Source: Psychromonas algarum
Lineage (GTDB): Bacteria; Pseudomonadota; Gammaproteobacteria; Enterobacterales; Psychromonadaceae
Reading direction: 5' to 3'
Length of the DNA: 64,000 bases
Assembly: GCF_004376845.1 (NCBI RefSeq)
Contig: NZ_SNUW01000002.1
Span: 248,001-312,000, forward strand
The translations under genes and the position numbers were made by a program. The notes below the pieces were generated by a model, which was not told where the DNA came from, ran no database searches, and saw only the letters and a program-made list of their open reading frames with translations. Position 1 is the stretch's first letter. The number at the start of each line of letters is the position of its first letter. Shown piece after piece: positions 408 to 29,298 of the stretch.

Positions 408-448
408 AAGTGAGCAGTTAACCATGGCACTGCTCACTTTATTTTTTT
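408..448 (+). terminator. Rho-independent terminator of xseA
   Basis: A perfect stem of at least 10 bp (409-418 with 429-438, AGTGAGCAGT/ACTGCTCACT) has a 10-nt loop and is followed on the plus strand by a T-rich run at 438-448. It lies between the convergent xseA and mshQ genes. On the minus strand the U-tract is poor, so it mainly serves xseA. Confidence 0.85.
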
Positions 449-3400
449 AGTTAAAGGTCTGTAGACGATAAATTATTCTATCGTTTCCTCTAAACAAGCC
501 AAATGCCACATGTCCTGAAATACAGTCTTTTAAAGTACCACTCTCGCCAGAACAAGTTACTGCATTACCAGGATCTAATAACCAAGGAGCCACTGTTTCT
601 AAATTAATAAAGTAATCTAACTCACCACGATTATCAGGAGCAGAAAAATTAAACTGACTTTTACCAGCAATTAATGGGCTATTAATAATACTCAGTTTTG
701 TTGTCCCACTAGTATTACTGATTGGATCGCTCACTTGGATATCATTTGATGCATTCTTAACCGGATCACTTGTCACTTGCGAAAGATTAATAGCCGTACA
801 AACATCACGAGTAAAATTAACAAATCTTGTTCCATCGTAATAAGTAGCCTGTACATCCGTTCTAATCGCTTGAAATTCGCTACCATGACCACTCCCCGCT
901 TGTAAGCGGCCATAAGCTAAATCACCTAAGTCACCTAAGAAACAACTATCGGCAGCACAAGTTGTTGTACTATCCATCTGAATTTTCTCTCCATCTTTCC
1001 CTGTTAATTGAATAAAATAGTTAACTTTGTCGGCACTAAAGTAAGGTCCCTCAGGTGAAGTTGTTTTAGCAATCCCCATTTTAAGCCCAGTAATATCATG
1101 CTGACCCGCTATCCATGAACTGGCTTGATAATAATCGGCAGGTAATAAACGGTCACTTAATGAAAGTAATGTTTGATCAGTATTCGCTTGATCAGAAAAA
1201 CTACCAGAGGCAGTATCTTTTGCAGCCACTGGATAGCCTAAATTATAATCATAATTTACAGTGATCTTTTGCCCCCCCTGCGCATAAGCGATCATGCTGT
1301 AATTTACTTCAATATCTTGCTGGCCAATATAAGTGTAATCACTATTACAGGCAGGAGTAACATTGAAACCATTAAACGCTAAATAATCAGGATAGAAGCG
1401 CCCGATACTTTTAATTGCAGAACTTTCAATTTCATTATTTGCGACTAAATAATCATTTTCAGTTTTAGCAATTAAGCCCAACGTCCCAACTTCATCATAA
1501 GCAAGGTTTTGATAAACAAACTCACCGGATGTCAAATCGACTTTATAACCATCAGTTCCGTTATATTGTAAATTTCCTAATGTGCCACTGCTTGGAAAAA
1601 CTAAACTAGGCTGTAAATTAATCGTACTCGAAAAACTAGGCGTTCGAGTCCCATAAGTTCCATTACAGTGCCCTTTACTATCGTTAGTACAGTCTTTTAC
1701 CGCAGTGACTGTTAGATCAAAAGTATCAACCGCTACAGCACTATAATCGACATTACTTGAACGAATAAAACCACTCCCAACATCACTCGTTTCAGGGTTA
1801 GTTATAGACGTTCCTGCACTGATAGCATCTCGCTTATAACCTGTTACATCGCTAATTTGTAATTCTAAAGGATTCACAATAGTTGACGTACTACCTTGTA
1901 ATTCATCATTTTGATTAGCATCTGCAGGTGGACTCCCAACTCCAGCATCGTCACGAGCATGTATTTGTATTTGGCCTGTATCAGGGTAATTAATAGCAAT
2001 TGGAGTGCTACTAACACCAGAAGAAAATGCAACATCAACTAATGTTGCAGCATTTGCAGACTTACCAACCGGATCCCCCTCCACTTCTACATCGACACCA
2101 ACTGGCGTAGTTGGACTAACGTATGATGACCAAAACTGTAATTCTTTAGTGCCCGTATAACCTTCAACAACCTGACATTGTCCTGTTGTAGTATCTTCCC
2201 CGATAGCTGTTAATGTTAATGAGAAAGGACGATTAGCAATATTAATACAATCACCATTGATATCTTTTTCACAACTTAATGCAGCTTGTAACTTAAAAGG
2301 TCTAAAGGTAATTATCGGAGAATCGATTGTTGCTCCACTCCCTGCAACGGTAACAACGACATCTCCAGCATCTGGATGGAAAAGCGCTAAATTCACAGTA
2401 CCATTATCAGATGCTGAAAAATTATATTCAGCTTTCCCATTGCCATTATTAGTTAAACTACCTTGACCATCACCAATACTCCAATCACCAAGGTTAGTGC
2501 TTGTAGAAAGTGAAATTGCACTCGAATAATCGGTATCAACATTTGCATCTAACAACACTTTTATCGGAATCGTTTGTGCAGAACAAGTCAAACCATTTTG
2601 GTCTAAACCATCAAAGGAGAAGCTATAATTATTATTTGGAGGGGTAATTTCTCCACCACATATAGACTCATAATTAATAATTGTATTACCTCCTAAAAAA
2701 ACATTAGCAGCAGCAATTTGACCATTTAAAGTAAAACCACTAAGAGTAATATCACCTGATGAGTATAATAATGCATCAATAGAATTAGATGCATGAATAG
2801 TTAAATTGCTATTAACAATAAAAAACCATCTACTACTGTTTGAGTTAATCAACTGTCCATTTAAAGCTTGAATATTTTCTACAAATAAAAATACATCTCC
2901 ATCTCCTATAACTTCGATTCGCGCAGTTGGATCCAATTTAAGAGTGTGAATTGCATAAACACCAGCAGACAACTTAACCGTAGCAGTTTCCTGTACCGTT
3001 AATGAATCAACTTGATAAAGCAAACCAGCGTCATAGTCTAAGGGTAAAAAAGTAATTTCAGAGCTACTACCAGCAATGATATTTTCGAAAATAGTCGCAT
3101 TGTATTTTGTATCGCTTTCACCTGTACCGCCTAACTCAATTACTTGAGAGTTCCATAGTGAAAACGACACTCCATTATTATTTTCAACAATGGAAAAATC
3201 ACTTAGCTCTTGTGATGGCGGGCTGGTAACGCCACAACTTACTCCTGCACCACAACTATTTGGAGGAGGGTTACCATTTGTTGCTGTATCTGGATCATAA
3301 TAATAACCCGCAATAGAGCCAAACGGAAAAAGATTCGTTTTTGAATCTAATATCTGAGCTGTGTTTTGCATGAAAAGCTCAGATGTAGAGTTATAACTTT

Positions 3401-3809
3401 GTACAGCATCTGGAAAAATATCAGTACACTGCCCGATTAGCTCATCTACCGGTAAGTCAATTGGTGGCTCTGGCTTAACGTTCTCACAAGTAACACCTAA
3501 AATATCAGCATTAGGTTTAAGTGTGATTGTACCTCCGCTCCAAACATCTTCTGTTACTTTAGACTTATTACCAATGATCACATTGCCTGTCGCATATATA
3601 GAGCCAGTAAATATTGCCTTGTTTCCAATGGTTACGTCACCTTTCACATACATACCAGGGTAGGCAATATCGGTATTGTTATTATCTAATGTGTAATTTC
3701 CATTAACGACTACATAGCTATTTAGATCATCAGGAGGATCGCATTCAGCAGCAAATGCGGTGATCGGAATTAAAAAAAGGATAACAATTAGCTTTTGAAA
3801 TAATCTCAT
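447..3809 (-). CDS. mshQ: MshQ-like large secreted pilus-locus protein
   Basis: This 1120-residue protein has a clear Sec signal peptide (residues 1-20, cleaved after ITAFA). An N-terminal region (about 30-110) repeats a short glycine/asparagine beta pattern (GDVTIGNKAIFTG and similar), suggesting a bactofilin-like or beta-helical fold. A second beta-rich region follows at about 230-385 (LYSSGDITLSGFTLNG). The long C-terminal part carries the MshQ/DUF6701-type block with RFYPDYLAF and CNSDYTYIGQQDIEV. MshQ is the last gene of MSHA pilus loci in Vibrio and Shewanella. Its exact role is not settled, and a surface or tip adhesin is plausible. It overlaps mshP by 4 nt (ATGA), which indicates translational coupling. 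Position and the C-terminal block support the name; the N-terminal fold is inferred. Confidence 0.8.
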   Translation of the reverse strand: MRLFQKLIVILFLIPITAFAAECDPPDDLNSYVVVNGNYTLDNNNTDIAYPGMYVKGDVTIGNKAIFTGSIYATGNVIIGNKSKVTEDVWSGGTITLKPNADILGVTCENVKPEPPIDLPVDELIGQCTDIFPDAVQSYNSTSELFMQNTAQILDSKTNLFPFGSIAGYYYDPDTATNGNPPPNSCGAGVSCGVTSPPSQELSDFSIVENNNGVSFSLWNSQVIELGGTGESDTKYNATIFENIIAGSSSEITFLPLDYDAGLLYQVDSLTVQETATVKLSAGVYAIHTLKLDPTARIEVIGDGDVFLFVENIQALNGQLINSNSSRWFFIVNSNLTIHASNSIDALLYSSGDITLSGFTLNGQIAAANVFLGGNTIINYESICGGEITPPNNNYSFSFDGLDQNGLTCSAQTIPIKVLLDANVDTDYSSAISLSTSTNLGDWSIGDGQGSLTNNGNGKAEYNFSASDNGTVNLALFHPDAGDVVVTVAGSGATIDSPIITFRPFKLQAALSCEKDINGDCINIANRPFSLTLTAIGEDTTTGQCQVVEGYTGTKELQFWSSYVSPTTPVGVDVEVEGDPVGKSANAATLVDVAFSSGVSSTPIAINYPDTGQIQIHARDDAGVGSPPADANQNDELQGSTSTIVNPLELQISDVTGYKRDAISAGTSITNPETSDVGSGFIRSSNVDYSAVAVDTFDLTVTAVKDCTNDSKGHCNGTYGTRTPSFSSTINLQPSLVFPSSGTLGNLQYNGTDGYKVDLTSGEFVYQNLAYDEVGTLGLIAKTENDYLVANNEIESSAIKSIGRFYPDYLAFNGFNVTPACNSDYTYIGQQDIEVNYSMIAYAQGGQKITVNYDYNLGYPVAAKDTASGSFSDQANTDQTLLSLSDRLLPADYYQASSWIAGQHDITGLKMGIAKTTSPEGPYFSADKVNYFIQLTGKDGEKIQMDSTTTCAADSCFLGDLGDLAYGRLQAGSGHGSEFQAIRTDVQATYYDGTRFVNFTRDVCTAINLSQVTSDPVKNASNDIQVSDPISNTSGTTKLSIINSPLIAGKSQFNFSAPDNRGELDYFINLETVAPWLLDPGNAVTCSGESGTLKDCISGHVAFGLFRGNDRIIYRLQTFN

Positions 3810-4243
3810 AATTGAGTAGCCTCAACAGTAATTTGACGACGAGTCATTATTTCACCACTTTCACAAACTGCCGTACTAACTAACTTATAACGTGTTGCAA
3901 TACCAGCTGAAGCTACCTTTTCTGTACAAGTAACATCGACACTACAACTATGAAAACCAGGGTTATTAGGTAAATCAGGAGAAATTAATGTTGCGGGACA
4001 CTCTGTCACACTTGAATCTAAAGGAAATAAGTCAGTTAATACCATTTCACTACCAGAATAAGCCGATAAATATGCGCGGGCGGCATAGACTTCAAAACTC
4101 GCTCCTTGTGCACTATCACGTTGTAATGAAACCAAACTTGCTGCTAATAACGAAACAATAATGATCACAAAAATGGCTATAAGTATGGCACTACCAGACT
4201 GTCTAGGGCTTACTTGAGAGCCAGTGATTTGATTATTTATCAC
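3806..4243 (-). CDS. mshP: MshP-like minor pilin or pilus-assembly protein
   Basis: The protein has one hydrophobic segment near its N-terminus (SAILIAIFVIIIVSLLAASL) preceded by RQSG, as in MshP and PilX-type proteins. A periplasmic domain with several cysteines follows. I place the start at a GTG at 4243, because AAGGAG (complement of 4252-4257) sits 8 nt upstream. This gives 145 residues and leaves 22 nt after mshO. A longer frame from 4318 would overlap mshO by about 50 nt and has no better ribosome binding site. The gene lies between mshO and mshQ, the usual MSHA order. The function is inferred from family and position: a minor component of the type IV pilus made at the inner membrane. 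Confidence 0.75.
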   Translation of the reverse strand: MINNQITGSQVSPRQSGSAILIAIFVIIIVSLLAASLVSLQRDSAQGASFEVYAARAYLSAYSGSEMVLTDLFPLDSSVTECPATLISPDLPNNPGFHSCSVDVTCTEKVASAGIATRYKLVSTAVCESGEIMTRRQITVEATQL

Positions 4244-4265
4244 CTTAACGTCTCCTTGAATTTGC

Positions 4266-5015
4266 TTACGGGACATTGTTAATGTGTAGCGTTTGTTCAA
4301 AAGCCACCTCCAAATCATTTAAAGGCAAACTAAAATTAACTTTCACCAGACTATTGCGTTGTAGTGTTGCATTAATAACTTCAAAGGTTCCTGAAATATT
4401 CTCAGCCATCAATACACCTGTCTCTTGATTTTTTTGACGGTATAAATCATCTCCAATCATACAATATTGTAAACGTTCATTGATGATATAAAGGCGCTTA
4501 GCTGGTGAAGATAATGGGAAACTAATATCACCAGACAAAGATAACGTATCCATAGCGGTGTTGATGCCAGTAATACTCTGAACTTTACTTGATCCATTAG
4601 CATCGCTTACGAATAATTCAGATGCATTTAATAAATACACGACAGCTTTGTCAGCAGCATCATAACTATAATCATCCATCACATTGATCACTGCTTGATT
4701 ATCTTCTATTGGATAAACAGGAAGATCCAAGTATAAACTACTGTTTTTAACGGGGTAAAAACTTAAACAACCATTCTCCACTTTGACACTATTGGGTAAC
4801 GCATTAGAAGCTTCTCTACGCATTCGCTCCATCGCAAAACGAATACTATTCAATGACTTATCTCGATCGGATATTTCATTATAAATATTTAATCCTTTGC
4901 CAATGTAGGTGGTTGTTGCAATACCAAGAGCGGCTAAAATAATGATCACAATAACCAATTCAATTAATGTGAAACCTTTTGTTAACGAAGGATGTGTGAG
5001 TTTATTTATAAGCAT
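4266..5015 (-). CDS. mshO: MSHA minor pilin MshO
   Basis: A type IV prepilin leader precedes the cleavage and methylation motif KGFTLIELVIVIII, which continues as the hydrophobic helix. The following RFAMERMRREASNALPNSV is characteristic of MshO and PilW-like minor pilins. The start is the ATG at 5015, which overlaps the mshD stop as TGATG, with AAGGGG 8 nt upstream; a TTG one codon earlier is less likely. The mature protein of about 235 residues should be processed by the prepilin peptidase and join the pilus or its initiation complex. The peptidase gene and assembly ATPase are not in this window. Confidence 0.85.
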   Translation of the reverse strand: MLINKLTHPSLTKGFTLIELVIVIIILAALGIATTTYIGKGLNIYNEISDRDKSLNSIRFAMERMRREASNALPNSVKVENGCLSFYPVKNSSLYLDLPVYPIEDNQAVINVMDDYSYDAADKAVVYLLNASELFVSDANGSSKVQSITGINTAMDTLSLSGDISFPLSSPAKRLYIINERLQYCMIGDDLYRQKNQETGVLMAENISGTFEVINATLQRNSLVKVNFSLPLNDLEVAFEQTLHINNVP

Positions 5016-5644
5016 CAATAATTCCCCTTTAAAGCAGAGAATGTAATTTCTTCATCCGTTGGTGTTTTGATTGTCACTAAGATCTCTTTAAACACATCTT
5101 TTTTATTTTCTGTTACTTGAATTTTTACAGCATAACTTTGTAGCTCAGAAGAAAGATCATCACCTAGAACATCACCTAGAACATCACCATAGCTAACAGC
5201 ACTAACAAAATCATTTTCAATAAAATCATCAACATCATTAAAGTTTTGATGTTCACCTTCAATTTCACTAGCATCAATACCGTAATTAACTGCTCTTGTG
5301 CACGTAACTGCAATTGGAGTTCCAGTGCTTACCCATGTTTGGCTACTTTGCTCGTACCATAAGTTATTATCTCCCCAGATTTCCCCACAACGATATAACC
5401 CACCGTTATGATCAGAGTTTTGGTCATAAGCACGCGATAAGATATCTTGTAGAATATTTTGTCCAAGTTGAGAGGCTCTTAAGCGATGGATTGGTTCAAG
5501 AGTATCTTTACTTTGTGATATCAACATTGTGGTCATTGACAACAAAGCGAGTGCTAATACAACAATGCCGATAACTAATTCTATTAAAGTAAAACCAGCA
5601 GTTGATTGATGGCGAGTATTAACAACACCTAAGAGTCTATTCAT
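5015..5644 (-). CDS. mshD: MSHA minor pilin MshD
   Basis: The prepilin motif AGFTLIELVIGIVVLALAL is followed by LRASQLGQNILQDILSRAYD and DQNSDHNGGLYRCGE, a block typical of MshD. I chose the ATG at 5644, which has AGAAGG 8 nt upstream and overlaps the mshC stop by 8 nt; the in-frame ATG seven codons earlier would overlap mshC more. This gives 209 residues. Near residues 153-164 the gene has a 12-bp near-tandem duplication that encodes DVLGDVLGDD (about 5158-5190). The gene is coupled to mshC upstream and mshO downstream. Role by family: a minor pilin in the MSHA pilus. Confidence 0.86.
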   Translation of the reverse strand: MNRLLGVVNTRHQSTAGFTLIELVIGIVVLALALLSMTTMLISQSKDTLEPIHRLRASQLGQNILQDILSRAYDQNSDHNGGLYRCGEIWGDNNLWYEQSSQTWVSTGTPIAVTCTRAVNYGIDASEIEGEHQNFNDVDDFIENDFVSAVSYGDVLGDVLGDDLSSELQSYAVKIQVTENKKDVFKEILVTIKTPTDEEITFSALKGNY

Positions 5645-6140
5645 GAATATAACCTTCTGATTCAATGTTAATCATGAGGTTGTTTTCACCAGTTAATGAA
5701 ATGGGGCTATTACCAGTTGTTAAACGACCTTGTAAATCAAAATGATAATTAGCAGGCATTAATATGCCATCACTAAAATTAATAATATTATATTGGCTAT
5801 AGCTATCATCATCACAGCTGATGTTTGCAGAAGGTATCGAACAGACTCCATTATTTTTAGCGGTATGTTCACTATAAAAACAAGCTGATTTAGCAACCAG
5901 CCAATAACAAGCATTGTTGACTGCATTAACAGCGGGGTCAGCGTTCATATTTTGTAATTGTGTTAAACGTAACCGGGAAATGAGTTGGTCTTTGACGGTG
6001 TAATCTTCAAAAGTGGATTGACTCGTTAATTTAGGTAACACAGCTGCAGCAAGTACCGCTAATACAATAACCACAATCACTAACTCAATGAGTGTAAAAC
6101 CCAATGTTTGATGTATCAGCTGTTTTTTTCTAAATGCCAT
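5637..6140 (-). CDS. mshC: MSHA minor pilin MshC
   Basis: This 167-residue type IV pilin-like protein has the leader and cleavage motif LGFTLIELVIVVIVLAVLAA, then KLTSQSTFEDYTVKDQLISR and a region with four or five cysteines, as in MshC. It is the first minor pilin after the two major pilin genes. It is separated from them by about 410 bp that hold a repeat and a terminator, so the minor pilins may be transcribed from their own promoter or by read-through. It overlaps mshD by 8 nt. Assignment between MshC and other minor pilins rests on order and on the motif after the helix. Confidence 0.8.
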   Translation of the reverse strand: MAFRKKQLIHQTLGFTLIELVIVVIVLAVLAAAVLPKLTSQSTFEDYTVKDQLISRLRLTQLQNMNADPAVNAVNNACYWLVAKSACFYSEHTAKNNGVCSIPSANISCDDDSYSQYNIINFSDGILMPANYHFDLQGRLTTGNSPISLTGENNLMINIESEGYIHE

Positions 6141-6202
6141 TGTCTAATCCATTATTAAAAGCAATATAGTTGATAGTACATTATTATAAAATTGAAAATA
6201 AT

Positions 6203-6366
6203 AATACCAATCACAGTAAATAGCGGATCTATTTTACTGGTTAAAACAACTCACTTCGTTTTTATAAATTTCGCAAATGGAACAAGTAATTATCTCAATT
6301 TACGCCTCGAATTGAATTGTTTTTTCTGCGCAAAATTTAGAGCACAGACTTAATGTAATTGCTATA
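6203..6366. repeat. MITE-like repeat between mshC and mshA
   Basis: A 164-bp non-coding stretch has imperfect terminal inverted repeats. The left end (6203-6219, AATACCAATCACAGTAA) and the complement of the right end (6350-6366, TATAGCAATTACATTAA) agree at 13 of 17 positions. The left end continues into ATAGCG, and the same 20-odd bases occur again at 15438-15460. No transposase is nearby, so this would be a non-autonomous or relic element. Whether it is mobile is inference. It sits within the 410-bp gap between mshC and mshA, where I see no gene. Confidence 0.55.
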
Positions 6367-6506
6367 AGCTTTGATTATAAAAATAAATTAACATTTACAT
6401 TACAAGTATTTAAAAATAGCAAAAATAAATTCAGCTATTTTAAAAGTAAAAGAAAGGCAGCAAAAAAGGCAATAATACCTTGATGCTATTCAAGCATAAA
6501 AAAGAC

Positions 6507-6532
6507 AAAAAAAATCCCGCCTAAGCGGGATT
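6507..6532 (-). terminator. Rho-independent terminator after mshA
   Basis: On the minus strand, AATCCCGC-TTAG-GCGGGATT forms an 8-bp stem (6525-6532 with 6513-6520), followed by a U-run complementary to the A-run at 6507-6514. It lies 20 bases after the mshA stop. It should end most pilin mRNA before the minor pilin genes and help set a high pilin-to-minor-pilin ratio. Confidence 0.9.
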
Positions 6533-6550
6533 TTTATTATATTAAATTAA

Positions 6551-7015
6551 TTAACAACCAGATGTATCTACTGTAATTGTTGGGCGAGCTATGCTTGTTG
6601 CATTTGCATAAGTAACACTACAATTTGCTGCACTACCTGAAGCAATATTCGTAGGTGATATTACAACAGAGTCAGTACCTGCCGCAGCAGATGTTGGAGA
6701 CCAATCATCAGCACTCAAATCAACAGCATCAAAAATGCCTGATGCAGTTGGGTAACCAAAAAGGATTTCAACATCAGTACCATCAATATCTAGAGTAGAT
6801 TCAGAGCCTACTTTTTCAACACCGGCGATTGCCGCTTTAGAATAAGTTAGTGTAGCACCACTTTCTAATGCTGCTTTTAAACCTTGTGTCGTAGATGCAC
6901 GCGCATCACCTTGTAAATCGATAAATTTAGGCACTGCAACAGCAGCTAAAATACCTAAAATAATGATCACGATAACTAATTCGATTAGTGTAAAACCTTT
7001 TTGTAGTTTATTCAT
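6551..7015 (-). CDS. mshA: MSHA-type major pilin, copy 2
   Basis: This 154-residue type IVa pilin has a short leader (MNKLQKG), then GFTLIELVIVIIILGILAAV, and the MshA-specific continuation AVPKFIDLQGDARAS. It ends with a cysteine pair (NCSVTY and the final SGC) that should close the D-loop by a disulfide. GGGAAG lies just upstream of the ATG. It is the second of two tandem MshA paralogues, separated by 81 bp and followed by a strong terminator. The first 55 residues are nearly identical to copy 1, and the exposed C-terminal halves differ. By family, MshA polymerises into the mannose-sensitive haemagglutinin pilus used for surface attachment. Confidence 0.9.
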   Translation of the reverse strand: MNKLQKGFTLIELVIVIIILGILAAVAVPKFIDLQGDARASTTQGLKAALESGATLTYSKAAIAGVEKVGSESTLDIDGTDVEILFGYPTASGIFDAVDLSADDWSPTSAAAGTDSVVISPTNIASGSAANCSVTYANATSIARPTITVDTSGC

Positions 7016-7096
7016 TTTTACTTCCCTTTTTTAATTTAGCTTGCCTATTAAGTAAACATTACCTTAACATCTTTAATTTAATGCATTAACCTATAT

Positions 7097-7540
7097 TTAA
7101 CAACCTGTTACAATAGCTTTAATAATAGGTCGTTTACCTGCTGCAACAGCTTCTGTATATTGAACTTCACAATTAGTTGCATTAGATCCTGAAGCTGTAA
7201 TAGTAGTCAATGGAGCGGCATTTACGACAGTCCAATCACCTACGCTTAAATCAACAGCATTATTAATCCCATCAGACGTACTTGCAGGGTAACCAAAAAC
7301 AACAGCGACCCCACTTTTTGTCATTTCCCCTGAAGATACTTTTTCAATTCCTTGAATAGCAGCTTGAGAATAAGTTAGGGTTGCACCACCTTCTAATGCA
7401 GCTTTAACACCTTGCATTGCGGAAGCTCGAGCATCACCTTGTAAATCAATAAACTTAGGCACAGCAGTTGCAGCTAAAATACCTAAAATAATGATCACTA
7501 TTACTAATTCAATTAATGTAAAACCTTTCTGATTTATCAT
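7097..7540 (-). CDS. mshA: MSHA-type major pilin, copy 1
   Basis: This 147-residue type IVa prepilin has the leader MINQKG, GFTLIELVIVIIILGILAAT and the MshA hallmark AVPKFIDLQGDARASAMQG. The C-terminal cysteine pair (NCEVQY and final VTGC) matches the second copy. AAGGA precedes the ATG by about 7 nt. It is the first gene of the pilus locus, with 357 bp of AT-rich DNA upstream that should hold the promoter. No mshB lies beside it, unlike the usual mshB-mshA-mshC order. Which copy is the main structural subunit cannot be told from sequence; the downstream copy may be an alternative pilin. Confidence 0.9.
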   Translation of the reverse strand: MINQKGFTLIELVIVIIILGILAATAVPKFIDLQGDARASAMQGVKAALEGGATLTYSQAAIQGIEKVSSGEMTKSGVAVVFGYPASTSDGINNAVDLSVGDWTVVNAAPLTTITASGSNATNCEVQYTEAVAAGKRPIIKAIVTGC

Positions 7541-10475: not shown

Positions 10476-10847
10476 TTAAGCAGCCGTTAATTTACAACCA
10501 ATTTCATTATCAATTAATACACTCAATTTATCAGTAAAGTGTGTAAAGGATTGATCAAGCTGTTGCATTTGTTTTTTATTGATAGTAGCTTCAACCCAAT
10601 TACCTTGGATATCATATAAACCGTTATATCGTTTATATTGGAAGGTATTTCCAGTACGAGTAACCAATAACCACCAGCCTAAAAATGTTCTATTTTCAGG
10701 TTCTTCTTTATCATCTACACATATTTCTAAACAATCAAAGAAAAAAGTACCTTCGTCCGACTGTAGCTTGCGAAAATATGGACCGATATCGGTAAACAAT
10801 TTAAATAAACGTCCACGTGATGGACCTTTTAAAGCTGTATCTGACAT
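10476..10847 (-). CDS. crl: sigma factor-binding protein Crl
   Basis: This 123-residue protein aligns along its length with E. coli Crl from memory: SRGRLFKLFTDIGPYFRK, FFFDCLEICVD, FLGWWLLV and GNWVEA match in order, including the aromatic residues in GPY and GWW needed for sigma binding. Crl is a small cytoplasmic protein that binds RpoS (sigma-S) and favours assembly of RNA polymerase with it, raising stationary-phase and stress transcription. It lies 56 bp after frsA on the same strand, the same order as in E. coli, and ends at a strong terminator. Confidence 0.92.
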   Translation of the reverse strand: MSDTALKGPSRGRLFKLFTDIGPYFRKLQSDEGTFFFDCLEICVDDKEEPENRTFLGWWLLVTRTGNTFQYKRYNGLYDIQGNWVEATINKKQMQQLDQSFTHFTDKLSVLIDNEIGCKLTAA

Positions 10848-10903
10848 GTTAGGGGGATATCCTTTTTATCTGTATGCTCGAATAATTACTTCAAATATAT
10901 CAG

Positions 10904-12163
10904 CTACTCTTGTAAATGTTGTGTTAACCATTGGGCAGAATACTCCAAAGATTTCAAATAAGAGGCAAAAATGGGAGGTTTATCAATAATATTTGCTTCG
11001 CTTTCATAACTTGCCCGTGCAATTAACTTTAAATCCTCTTCATTACATAAAATATCTTTGCTGTGCCCAATACTTAGAATAGGTGTTTTAGTACGTGTAC
11101 GTCCTAATAATCCTTGTTTTACTAATGAAAATGGTACACAGCTTTGATATAAATTAGCCACATCAGAACTTTTTATTTGCATACGACTAGCAAGACAATC
11201 CAAAGTCATTGGTGGTAATTTTGAAAAATTGCTAATGCTATCAAAGACACTTCCTACAGCAGCACCAACACTCACTACCGTTTTGACTAATTGAGGTTCT
11301 AAATAAGCTAAGCGATTTGCAACATTTCCCCCCATGCGCATCCCCATTAATGACATGCGAGCTTGATCAACCCAAGGTACTTGAGTCATATAATGTAAAA
11401 CTGCTTGATGTAACTGCGAAGTATCTTGCTCTAACTTTAGTTGGCTAGAAAAACCAACACCAGGCATATCGACAGTTAACATTGCTAAACCTGCTGGTTT
11501 AAGCTGTTTTTCAAAGAGGGGTAAAAAGTCACATTGCAGCGTATCGATTCCCCCGCTCACAATAACAACAGGATGAATAACGTCATCGTTTGGCAGATGC
11601 AAATAACAACGGATATTTCTACCTTTAAAAGGAACGAGGATCTCTTTTAATAAAGCAGTTTCTTCTTGATCAAAAGTGCAACGATAATTCGAGAAAGCAA
11701 GTAACTGTGCTTGAATACTATTTTCATCGCCTTTTAGATGAGGATAGCTAGCAATACTGTAACATTGAGAGGCGAGATAAAAGGCTTTTTTAGCTTGTTC
11801 TTTATGGCCAAATTTAACTAACTCATTTGCTTCTCTTTGAAACTTCATGCCTTTACTTGACCATTCATAACTCCAGTTACCAGAGCGAAAACCAATTACA
11901 GTATCTAATAGTTCTGGGTCACTACGTTTATTTTTTGAAGCACTTATTTTTGCTAACACTTCATAGCAGTCAATAATATCCAACCCTTGCCAAGCCCATT
12001 GCATCAATTTAATTAATCGATACCAACCAACCTGCTCTTCTCCATCCATAGTCCGATTATGCAATTTTTTATTTTTTTTAGAGCCGCTATTTGCAATTAA
12101 AGTAGATGTTTCTTGAACATTATATTTTTCAGCAAATAAGACTTCAGATAGATTTTTAGACAT
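10904..12163 (-). CDS. frsA: FrsA family alpha/beta-hydrolase-fold protein
   Basis: This 419-residue protein matches FrsA/YafA: LSEVLFAEKYNVQETSTL at the start, WYRLIKLMQWAWQGLD and LLDTVIGFRSGNWSYEW in the N-terminal helical region, then an alpha/beta-hydrolase fold with VVIVSGGIDTLQCDF. The usual nucleophile elbow GxSxG reads GMRMG here, so a classical serine is missing, as in E. coli FrsA. The family was linked to the EIIA-Glc/fermentation switch and reported as an esterase or pyruvate decarboxylase; these activities are disputed, so I leave the reaction open. The start has GAGAA just upstream. It precedes crl, as in enterobacteria. Confidence 0.9.
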   Translation of the reverse strand: MSKNLSEVLFAEKYNVQETSTLIANSGSKKNKKLHNRTMDGEEQVGWYRLIKLMQWAWQGLDIIDCYEVLAKISASKNKRSDPELLDTVIGFRSGNWSYEWSSKGMKFQREANELVKFGHKEQAKKAFYLASQCYSIASYPHLKGDENSIQAQLLAFSNYRCTFDQEETALLKEILVPFKGRNIRCYLHLPNDDVIHPVVIVSGGIDTLQCDFLPLFEKQLKPAGLAMLTVDMPGVGFSSQLKLEQDTSQLHQAVLHYMTQVPWVDQARMSLMGMRMGGNVANRLAYLEPQLVKTVVSVGAAVGSVFDSISNFSKLPPMTLDCLASRMQIKSSDVANLYQSCVPFSLVKQGLLGRTRTKTPILSIGHSKDILCNEEDLKLIARASYESEANIIDKPPIFASYLKSLEYSAQWLTQHLQE

Positions 12164-13430: not shown

Positions 13431-15412
13431 TTATTTAGATGGAGCCTCCCGAACCTTGAGTAAAAGCGTATCTGCTTTTTCAAGGTTCTGCTGTTCACCT
13501 AATAGCAGCAATAAATCATTTACTTTGAAACAACTGGCTGGCTTGATTTTAATTACCTGTCCGCCCTCTCGTTGTAACTTTTTAATGATGACTCCTTTAA
13601 CTTTAAAAGATGAGATAGGTTTACCAATAAACTCAGACAAAGTAGGTAAACGCACTGCATGTAATTTTTCTACTTCATCAAATTCACTGTTATCTGAAAA
13701 GCGTGCCTTAGTTTGCTCTAACTCTCCGTAATAAAATCCATGTAAATTTTCATATTGCATTTTACGTTCATCATCCATTCTTCTCATTATTTTTCGATGT
13801 GAAACACCTGATAAAAGTAAAACATGTGCCACCATCATTAAACTTCCTTCTAGCACTTCAGGCACCACAGCAGTTGCTCCCGCAGCTTTTAATTGAGCTA
13901 GTCCTCGATCACTTTTAGTTCTCACTAACACTTTAATATCTGGGTTAATAGGACGAATAACTTCTAATAGGGCTTTAGAACGTTGTAAATCATCAAAGGT
14001 AATTATTAAGAGTTTTGCTTTTTCTAAACCAGCAATGAGTAAAATATCTCGACGACTCGCATCACCAAACTCAATGTTTTCACCGCCTTTTCTAGCTTCT
14101 TTAACTCGCATGGGATCTCTATCTAAAACAATAAATGGTAGTGATTCCATTTTTAAAAAGCGTGAAACTATTTGTCCAACTCGGCCATATCCGCAAATAA
14201 TCGTATGCTCAGTGAACTGCCCTGGTAAGGTTTTATTCAACCCGAATACTTTTTCAGAATGGTGCATGACTTCTTTAGATATTTTTTGGCTATATTGAAC
14301 CAATAAAGGAGTTAATGACATGCTGATCACGCCTGTTGCTAAAATTAAAGAGGCAAGTTGCTCATCCAAAAGATGATACTTTGTAGCCAAAGCGACTAAA
14401 ATAAATCCAAACTCCCCCATTTGTGCTAATGCAATACCAACGCCTAATGAAGTACTAATATTTTCTTTCATTAAAATGGCAGCAACGGCGACAGTAAAAA
14501 TTTTAGCCGCAATAACCACCACCACTAAAATAAATAATATACCCAGATTATTAGCTAACACCTGCGCATCTAATAACGTGCCAATAGAAACAAAGAACAT
14601 CGCCATCAAAATATCTTTAAACGGACGGATATCACTTAACAATTGATTTCTATAATGACTCTCCGCAAGCATCATACCGGCTAAAAAAGCCCCTAAGGCC
14701 ATCGATAGGCCCAAATATTGCGTAAAAGCAGACGCTAATATAGTAATAAATAAGGTGGAAAGAATAAATATTTCATCGAAACGCACTTTACCAACTTCAT
14801 CAAAGAAGAGTGGCAAAACCCAACGGCCAACGGCTAATAAAATAACCACAGCAAACAACCCTTTGATAAAGGCAAAACCTAATTCAAACAACAACTGCCC
14901 CTCTAACTCAGGCATGGCAATAATAGGAATAATAATTAAAAAGGGAACCACAGCTAAATCTTGAAATAACAAAACAGAAATAGTCAGTTTGCTCGATTCT
15001 GAATGCAACCGTTGCTGATCACTTAATACTTTAATAATGACAGCCGTTGAGGACATGGTAAGTACGCTGGCAACTGTAAAAGATTGTTGCCACGATAAAG
15101 AGAAGAACTGACTCAGCCAATAAAACAAGGAAAAGGAAAGAATAACCTGTAACGCTCCAACACCAAAACAGAGCGGCGCATACTCAATAACTTATCAAAG
15201 GAAAACTCTAAACCAAGTGAAAACATGAGGAAAACAATGCCAAATTCCGCAATCAATTCTATTTCATAGTATGAGCTTAAAAAATTTAATAAAGATGGGC
15301 CAAGCATAAAGCCAGTAAAAAGATAGGCAACAATATTAGACAATCGCAAATGTCTAAAAATAGCCACGCATATGATGGCAAAAAATAACAAAACCAATAA
15401 GTCATTAAGCAT
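13431..15412 (-). pseudogene. Kef/YbaL-type CPA2 cation:proton antiporter, frameshifted
   Basis: Two frames together make one protein. Residues 1-79 (from ATG at 15412) end in LLSMRRSV and then run into a stop at 15113. The rest, starting with FGVGALQVILSFSLFYWLSQ, is in another frame down to 13431. Adding one T in the run complementary to A15165-A15168 restores a 660-residue reading. The joined protein has the 12-13-helix CPA2 exchanger domain (SSTAVIIKVL, LSMALGAFLAGMMLAESHYR), an RCK_N/TrkA-N nucleotide domain (IICGYGRVGQIVSRF) and an RCK_C domain. Such proteins exchange K+ or Na+ for protons in the inner membrane under nucleotide control. It may be a true mutation, a sequencing error in a homopolymer, or programmed slippage. 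Confidence 0.85.
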
Positions 15413-27897: not shown

Positions 27898-29298
27898 TTA
27901 TAATAAATTAAAATCATTTAATATTGCGATTGACATAAATGTCATCAAAACAGCAATACCAATTTTAAAACCAAATTCTTGTATTCTTTCTGAAACAGGC
28001 TTCCCTGTAATTGCTTCAATAAAGTAATACATTAAATGTCCTCCATCTAATACAGGTAGAGGGATTAAATTCATAATACCTAAATTAACACTGATCAATG
28101 CGATAAAACCTAAGAAAGAAGCAATACCATAATCTGCGCTCATACCAGCCCCTTTAGCAATACCAACAGGACCACTTAAATTTTTAACCGACATTTCACC
28201 AGAAACTAACTTTACTAAAGTAGAAAAAGTAAGTTTTGTTAATTGCCAAGTTTTATCCACCCCTTTACTGACAGATTCGAAGACACCATATTGTAAACTA
28301 ACACGAAACTGTTCGGGGTAAGTATTAACTTTAGGAGCAAGTCCAATATACCCTTGTATAACCCCATTACCGACCTCACGTGCATCAGGTGTTAACATTA
28401 ATATTTTTTGTGAACCTTGTCGTTCAATTACCAGTTTCAGCGCTTTATTGGCACTCTCCTGAATGACCTGAACAAATTGTTGCCAATCTTGTAATGCGAC
28501 TCCATTAACTGCAAGTAATTTGTCTCCAACAGTTAAACCACTACGTTGAGAAGCACTATTATCAGCAATAGTGTTTGCAATTAAATGTACTTTTGGAGAA
28601 TAAGGAATAAAACCTAAACTAGTAATAACGGATTCTTTTTTAGGATCAAATTTCCAATCAGCAAGTGAGACTGTATAAGTTTGGCTTGGTTCCGTCACTA
28701 GAGGTAAGTTGGACTTATTTTTTGAGATAGAATCAATATTTGTTAAAGGATCAATAGTTAACTCAAAATCCGCTTCACCTATTTGTGCAACTAACGCTAA
28801 ATTTAATGCTTCCCAGTCATTAACCGATTGACCATTAACCGCACTCACCTGAAATGCTTTTTGTTGATGCACAACACTCACGGGAGAATATTCTGCTACC
28901 TGACTAATAATAGGCTTTGCGCTGTTTACTCCAATCATATACATCAACCAAAATGCAATAATGGCTAATAAGAAGTTTGCAATGGGCCCTGCCGCAACAA
29001 TAGCAATACGTTGCCACACAGTTTTTTTATCAAATGCAAATTGCTGTAATTCTTCAGGCACTTCTTCAACACGGCCATCTAACATTTTAACGTAACCACC
29101 CAAAGGGATAGCTGCAATAGCAAACTCGGTGCCGTGTTTATCTGTTTTTTTAAATAGCACTTTACCAAAACCAATGGAAAAACGATGTACCTTTACATTA
29201 CAACGACGCGCAACCCAGAAATGTCCATACTCATGAATGGCAACTAAAATACTTAATGCAATAATAAATGCAGCCGTATTCCAAATGAAATCTAACAA
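27898..29298 (-). CDS. rseP: site-2 zinc protease RseP
   Basis: RseP (466 residues; E. coli 450) is an inner-membrane intramembrane protease that cuts the anti-sigma factor RseA to release sigma-E during envelope stress. The zinc motif HEYGH lies in the first membrane helix (about residues 22-26). Two periplasmic PDZ domains follow, and the C-terminal helix has NLIPLPVLDGGHLMYY, the third zinc ligand. The start appears to be a TTG at 29298, with GAGG 6 nt upstream and LDFIWN aligning with E. coli's LSFLWD. It overlaps the dxr stop by 7 nt. In the window it follows dxr and precedes bamA. Confidence 0.96.
   Translation of the reverse strand: MLDFIWNTAAFIIALSILVAIHEYGHFWVARRCNVKVHRFSIGFGKVLFKKTDKHGTEFAIAAIPLGGYVKMLDGRVEEVPEELQQFAFDKKTVWQRIAIVAAGPIANFLLAIIAFWLMYMIGVNSAKPIISQVAEYSPVSVVHQQKAFQVSAVNGQSVNDWEALNLALVAQIGEADFELTIDPLTNIDSISKNKSNLPLVTEPSQTYTVSLADWKFDPKKESVITSLGFIPYSPKVHLIANTIADNSASQRSGLTVGDKLLAVNGVALQDWQQFVQVIQESANKALKLVIERQGSQKILMLTPDAREVGNGVIQGYIGLAPKVNTYPEQFRVSLQYGVFESVSKGVDKTWQLTKLTFSTLVKLVSGEMSVKNLSGPVGIAKGAGMSADYGIASFLGFIALISVNLGIMNLIPLPVLDGGHLMYYFIEAITGKPVSERIQEFGFKIGIAVLMTFMSIAILNDFNLL

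Follow-up and report, generated by a model that had tools for sequence, protein, structure and literature searches.

The best described counterparts of the protein treated here are the glutathione-gated K+ efflux proteins KefC and KefB (NF002924, NF002973) and the YbaL family (NF007950), in which an exchanger domain is followed by TrkA_N, an order shared by the antiporter described below. The counterparts of the lesion itself are isolated frameshift pseudogenes or sequencing errors in prokaryote genomes, and the available portion of one survey (PMC3711429) expects that isolated frameshifts confirmed by BLASTp reflect errors of sequencing and not true indels. The cases in that portion occur in one genome only, are confirmed by homology, lie within a Pfam domain and have intact relatives; the antiporter is alike in all these respects, and no difference from it was noticed. 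As regards slippage, according to the accessible part of another study (PMC1088944), counter-selection becomes visible in a large proportion of genomes once a run reaches about nine A or T, and its authors allow for slippage at shorter runs in some bacteria. Genome reduction in Psychromonas has been described for a 1.69 Mb amphipod-gut genome (PMC5893861), different from the genome analysed here, and in the main text of that paper, as far as it was available, the words pseudogene, antiporter and frameshift are absent. Among the matches listed by a literature search no title dealt with the antiporter locus, which leaves the absence of an earlier report unproven.

The DNA analysed comes from Psychromonas, a marine bacterium, with an assembly of 3,069,985 bases (3.07 Mb) in 38 contigs. 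The window, that is the whole stretch of 64,000 nucleotides under analysis, covers positions 248001-312000 of contig C12. The antiporter gene is located on the minus strand at 13431-15412 and changes frame once, where four T stand in a row (15165-15168, A on the plus strand); the closer end of the contig is about 213 kb away. The upstream fragment (15113-15412, 99 amino acids) spans the initial transmembrane portion of the exchanger domain and is out of frame from about codon 82 on; the downstream open frame (13431-15128, minus strand, 565 codons from a TTG) comprises the remaining exchanger domain, TrkA_N (RCK_N) and a weak TrkA_C (RCK_C). According to the list of open reading frames, the two overlap in different frames. 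The exchanger profile PF00999 (375 positions) is divided between them, with profile positions 2-86 in the upstream ORF and 94-374 in the downstream one. About 82 residues are read correctly before the missing base truncates the protein, so the full antiporter is not encoded by the sequence as given.

In a search of 24 Psychromonas genomes, including the source genome, with the downstream fragment, an orthologue was found in 12 other genomes, with 57-69% identity and open frames of 651-674 codons. A single-base frameshift had been predicted from the window alone and a comparison with relatives proposed; the DNA alignment with these 12 orthologues bears the prediction out, with a one-base gap of the window at the T run, while each of the 12 sequences runs through the site in a single frame and with one base more. 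Elsewhere in this alignment the window is gapped at the start, over three bases, and twice by small gaps within the final codons. In the orthologue of a metagenome-assembled genome (G018) a TGA lies inside the matched stretch, and the reading stops after 646 residues, close to where the protein usually ends. The original prediction also spoke of a homopolymer, and this holds only insofar as the break does lie at a T run: the run counts merely four bases, is one of 27 such T runs in the gene, and longer kinds of run are present in the same gene. The site itself reads five T in eight orthologues, GTATTT in three and GTCTTT in one, therefore a homopolymer of constant make-up is absent there. The frame break is confirmed, as an ordinary one.

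The product is probably, judging from its domains, a KefC-like cation/proton antiporter of the CPA2 type with RCK domains, not certified as KefB, KefC or YbaL. Its assignment to a Kef/YbaL type agrees with the PF00999 and TrkA_N matches and with KefC as the best NCBIfam match. Both fragments pass the PF00999 cut-off and the downstream one passes that of TrkA_N, TrkA_C falling just short (24.6 against 27 bits). Two intact orthologues were scanned, and in both of them the exchanger and TrkA_N matches are above the cut-offs, with a weak TrkA_C which is over the Pfam cut-off in one and under it in the other. With TIGR00932 these orthologues score 223.4 and 225.1 bits, narrowly short of the cut-off of 238.3 bits, in matches that extend over almost the full model, and the window fragments 140.4 and 71.8 bits. 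KefC and KefB are the best NCBIfam and PDB matches of the downstream fragment, the nearest structures by sequence being those of KefC (8bxg, 9emb). The two orthologues nevertheless reach only 370 and 358 bits with KefC, about half of its cut-off of 752, and 327 and 326 bits with KefB (cut-off 804), so that these scores, together with the additional weak TrkA_C, argue against KefC itself. With YbaL the scores are weaker than with KefC (229 and 218 bits) and far under the cut-off of 700.

The locus is embedded in a conserved neighbourhood. The order proA, proB, frsA, a 397-amino-acid membrane protein, the antiporter, tilS and dnaE is shared with two relatives (G011 and G022), hence position, too, marks the antiporter as orthologous to theirs; the spacing between antiporter and tilS amounts to about 1.2 kb and 4.8 kb in these genomes versus 0.3 kb in the window. 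In a protein search, eight of the ten named loci closest to the antiporter belonged to Psychromonas. The best long DNA match in the other 59 genomes searched was 72%, and of 578 matching records in the plasmid collection none had at least 60% identity.

Both halves of the gene are under purifying selection. No stop occurs in the left or the right part across 1971 bases, and pN/pS between window and relatives is 0.199 on the left and 0.299 on the right, slightly higher than among the relatives themselves (0.150 and 0.236), in keeping with the predicted conservation of both halves. Where the other 12 sequences are invariant, the window has substitutions in 1 of 42 columns on the left and in 13 of 216 on the right, eight of the latter 13 being exchanges among I, L, M and V; by the same right-side measure two orthologues show more (L029 with 29/232 and L030 with 33/236), and the remaining ten show 0 to 4 each. 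A relative-rate test computed on the downstream fragment ranked the antiporter 23rd of 26 gene trios by the length of the branch leading to this genome (ratio 0.88, with three trios above it), a slight speed-up inside the range of intact genes, which dates nothing because synonymous sites are near saturation. The excess of change in the antiporter is slight at most. The absence of stops sets a limit: 5.4% of single-base changes in the gene create a stop, and a stop-free gene of this length has a 5% chance after about 0.028 (~0.03) neutral substitutions per site. As this bounds the neutral divergence since inactivation, the lesion is either young or not real, and with a single lesion, 12 intact orthologues and no further decay, the predicted alternative of a recent event or a sequencing error is supported.

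Between these two, a very recent real loss-of-function deletion in a dispensable gene is slightly favoured as the most likely reading. One base would have been removed from the antiporter gene by replication slippage or a simple deletion, which would be present, as far as could be seen, in the window genome only; the base would then be missing in the organism's own DNA, the truncated protein would presumably be inactive, and the antiporter would have been lost as a dispensable gene while the genome keeps other antiporters. The distribution of the gene points in this direction, since an orthologue was not found in 11 of the 24 genus genomes and loss therefore seems tolerable. Nine of these 11 gave no match at 1e-60 and two (G014, G021) only a paralogue of 32-33% identity, the count including two genomes less than 80% complete (G010 with 79%, G020 with 51%). 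On these comparisons of sequence the gene looks dispensable.

Other exchangers are indeed encoded by this genome: four further intact exchanger genes above the Pfam cut-off have open frames of 680, 555, 541 and 683 codons. The first of them is the second Kef gene at the window end, which had been described as intact as far as it goes; it is intact over its whole length, the 680-codon frame continuing beyond the window, and with 696 bits it lies much nearer to KefC than the broken antiporter, still under the cut-off of 752. In addition, contig C38 carries a relic with six in-frame stops (L007, ~1501-2140; matched part G000:C38:125712-126125), which is the old remnant of a sodium/proton exchanger and by eye reads, as we take it, NhaP-like. 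This old relic indicates that antiporter loss does happen in this lineage. If the new lesion is real, it would show the loss of an antiporter at an early stage, in a small Psychromonas genome in which an old exchanger relic is already present.

The serious competitor, to which we give a somewhat smaller but still substantial chance, is that the assembly alone lacks the base, through a sequencing or consensus error, and that the antiporter of the organism is intact. Neither half has decayed beyond the one base, the values of purifying selection and the stop-free frame are equally predicted by a sequencing error, and the expectation stated for isolated, homology-confirmed frameshifts in the consulted portion of PMC3711429 lies on the same side. 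Weighing against it, the T run is short and longer runs in the gene are correct; none of its 17 runs of five or six bases has a frame break, which makes systematic homopolymer miscalling unlikely. The break also hits a gene absent from many relatives.

The frequency of comparable breaks near the site bears on the same choice. A codon-usage scan for split genes flagged 16 joins in 270 genes (the window and 14 further stretches), the four inside the window being overlapping or abutting neighbour genes, and a ranking of overlapping frame pairs returned 58 pairs; both missed the antiporter, and being too insensitive they were replaced by a protein comparison with two relatives. Within 264 kb of the same contig surrounding the site, a well-covered match was obtained for 53 of the 161 ORF proteins from the G011 stretch and for 38 of the 156 from the G022 stretch, samples biased to conserved genes, and in each set exactly one was split, namely the antiporter. 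The absence of a further split among these 53 and 38 genes speaks against an error, and together with the intact longer runs it underlies the slight preference for a real deletion, albeit with one split in 53 a low error rate and a low pseudogene rate cannot be told apart. Five stop events in the window genome, four within 17 alignment columns of the start and one in the last columns, are start or end differences. The reverse directions of the comparison flagged a chance ORF over crl (10579-10989), the rseP homologue of G022 treated below, a further frame event of that genome (partner g11_54969) and, in the relatives, several stop events.

Public Psychromonas genomes do contain conserved genes with a broken frame, which counts for the assembly error, and an example is the rseP homologue of G022. 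It changes frame at about nine A (C1 ~1853460-1854834, end of L078 and start of L079, run at ~L079:190-205), whereas rseP of the window (27898-29298) is one open frame identified as RseP by NCBIfam. RseP is essential in E. coli. Behind the G022 break there may be an error of the assembly, which is one likely reading, or else slippage within a gene that is otherwise essential; as it lies at a long A run it is not plainly an error, and the balance between deletion and error is left unmoved by it. Nine A is the length named for transcriptional slippage in the accessible part of PMC1088944, so a slippage site is conceivable there.

For the antiporter itself, read-through of the T run by programmed ribosomal frameshifting, transcriptional slippage or phase variation is very improbable. 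The conserved halves and the location of the frame change at a T run would suit it, and the original prediction had mentioned a slippage-controlled gene as an option; this option is not supported. The frame change is shared by none of the 12 single-frame orthologues, and the run has four bases against the about nine named in the part of PMC1088944 available, is one of the gene's 27 such runs and is not kept as such in relatives. By inspection there is no canonical -1 slippery heptamer (T GTT TTG does not fit X XXY YYZ), and as for a stimulatory RNA structure, the segment 15180-15090, which covers the site and what follows it, folds worse than the mean of its shuffles (z +1.20; stability equalled or exceeded by 176 of 200 shuffles). 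Programmed frameshifting or slippage, tried as a candidate, was rejected on these grounds. Equally improbable is the narrower proposal that reversible phase variation of the T run, or low-level read-through, operates in one strain, the break then being a regulated state and not a loss. Least probable of all, with hardly any chance, are two separate functional proteins, the TTG at 15128 serving as start of the downstream one, as the open frame of 565 codons with a possible start would permit, because no Shine-Dalgarno-like sequence precedes the TTG by eye, the split falls inside one Pfam domain that is whole in the two intact orthologues scanned, and all 12 aligned orthologues encode the exchanger domain in one frame. 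Either an ordinary mutation of recent date or an error of sequencing, rather than a new form of gene control, seems to be present at the locus. For annotation it should be marked as frameshifted rather than as two genes, and little follows beyond that.

Some neighbouring features deserve a brief mention. The 397-amino-acid membrane protein beside the antiporter had no NCBIfam match and is presumably NnrS-like. Between frsA and proB sits the gene of the sigma factor-binding protein Crl (10476-10847, minus strand, 123 codons), with an NCBIfam score above the cut-off; the plus-strand ORF at 10579-10989, longer than crl and overlapping it, is open by chance. At 447-3809 on the minus strand a large protein with DUF6701 is encoded, adjoining type IV pilin-like genes (3806-7540), and together they look like an MSHA-type pilus cluster.
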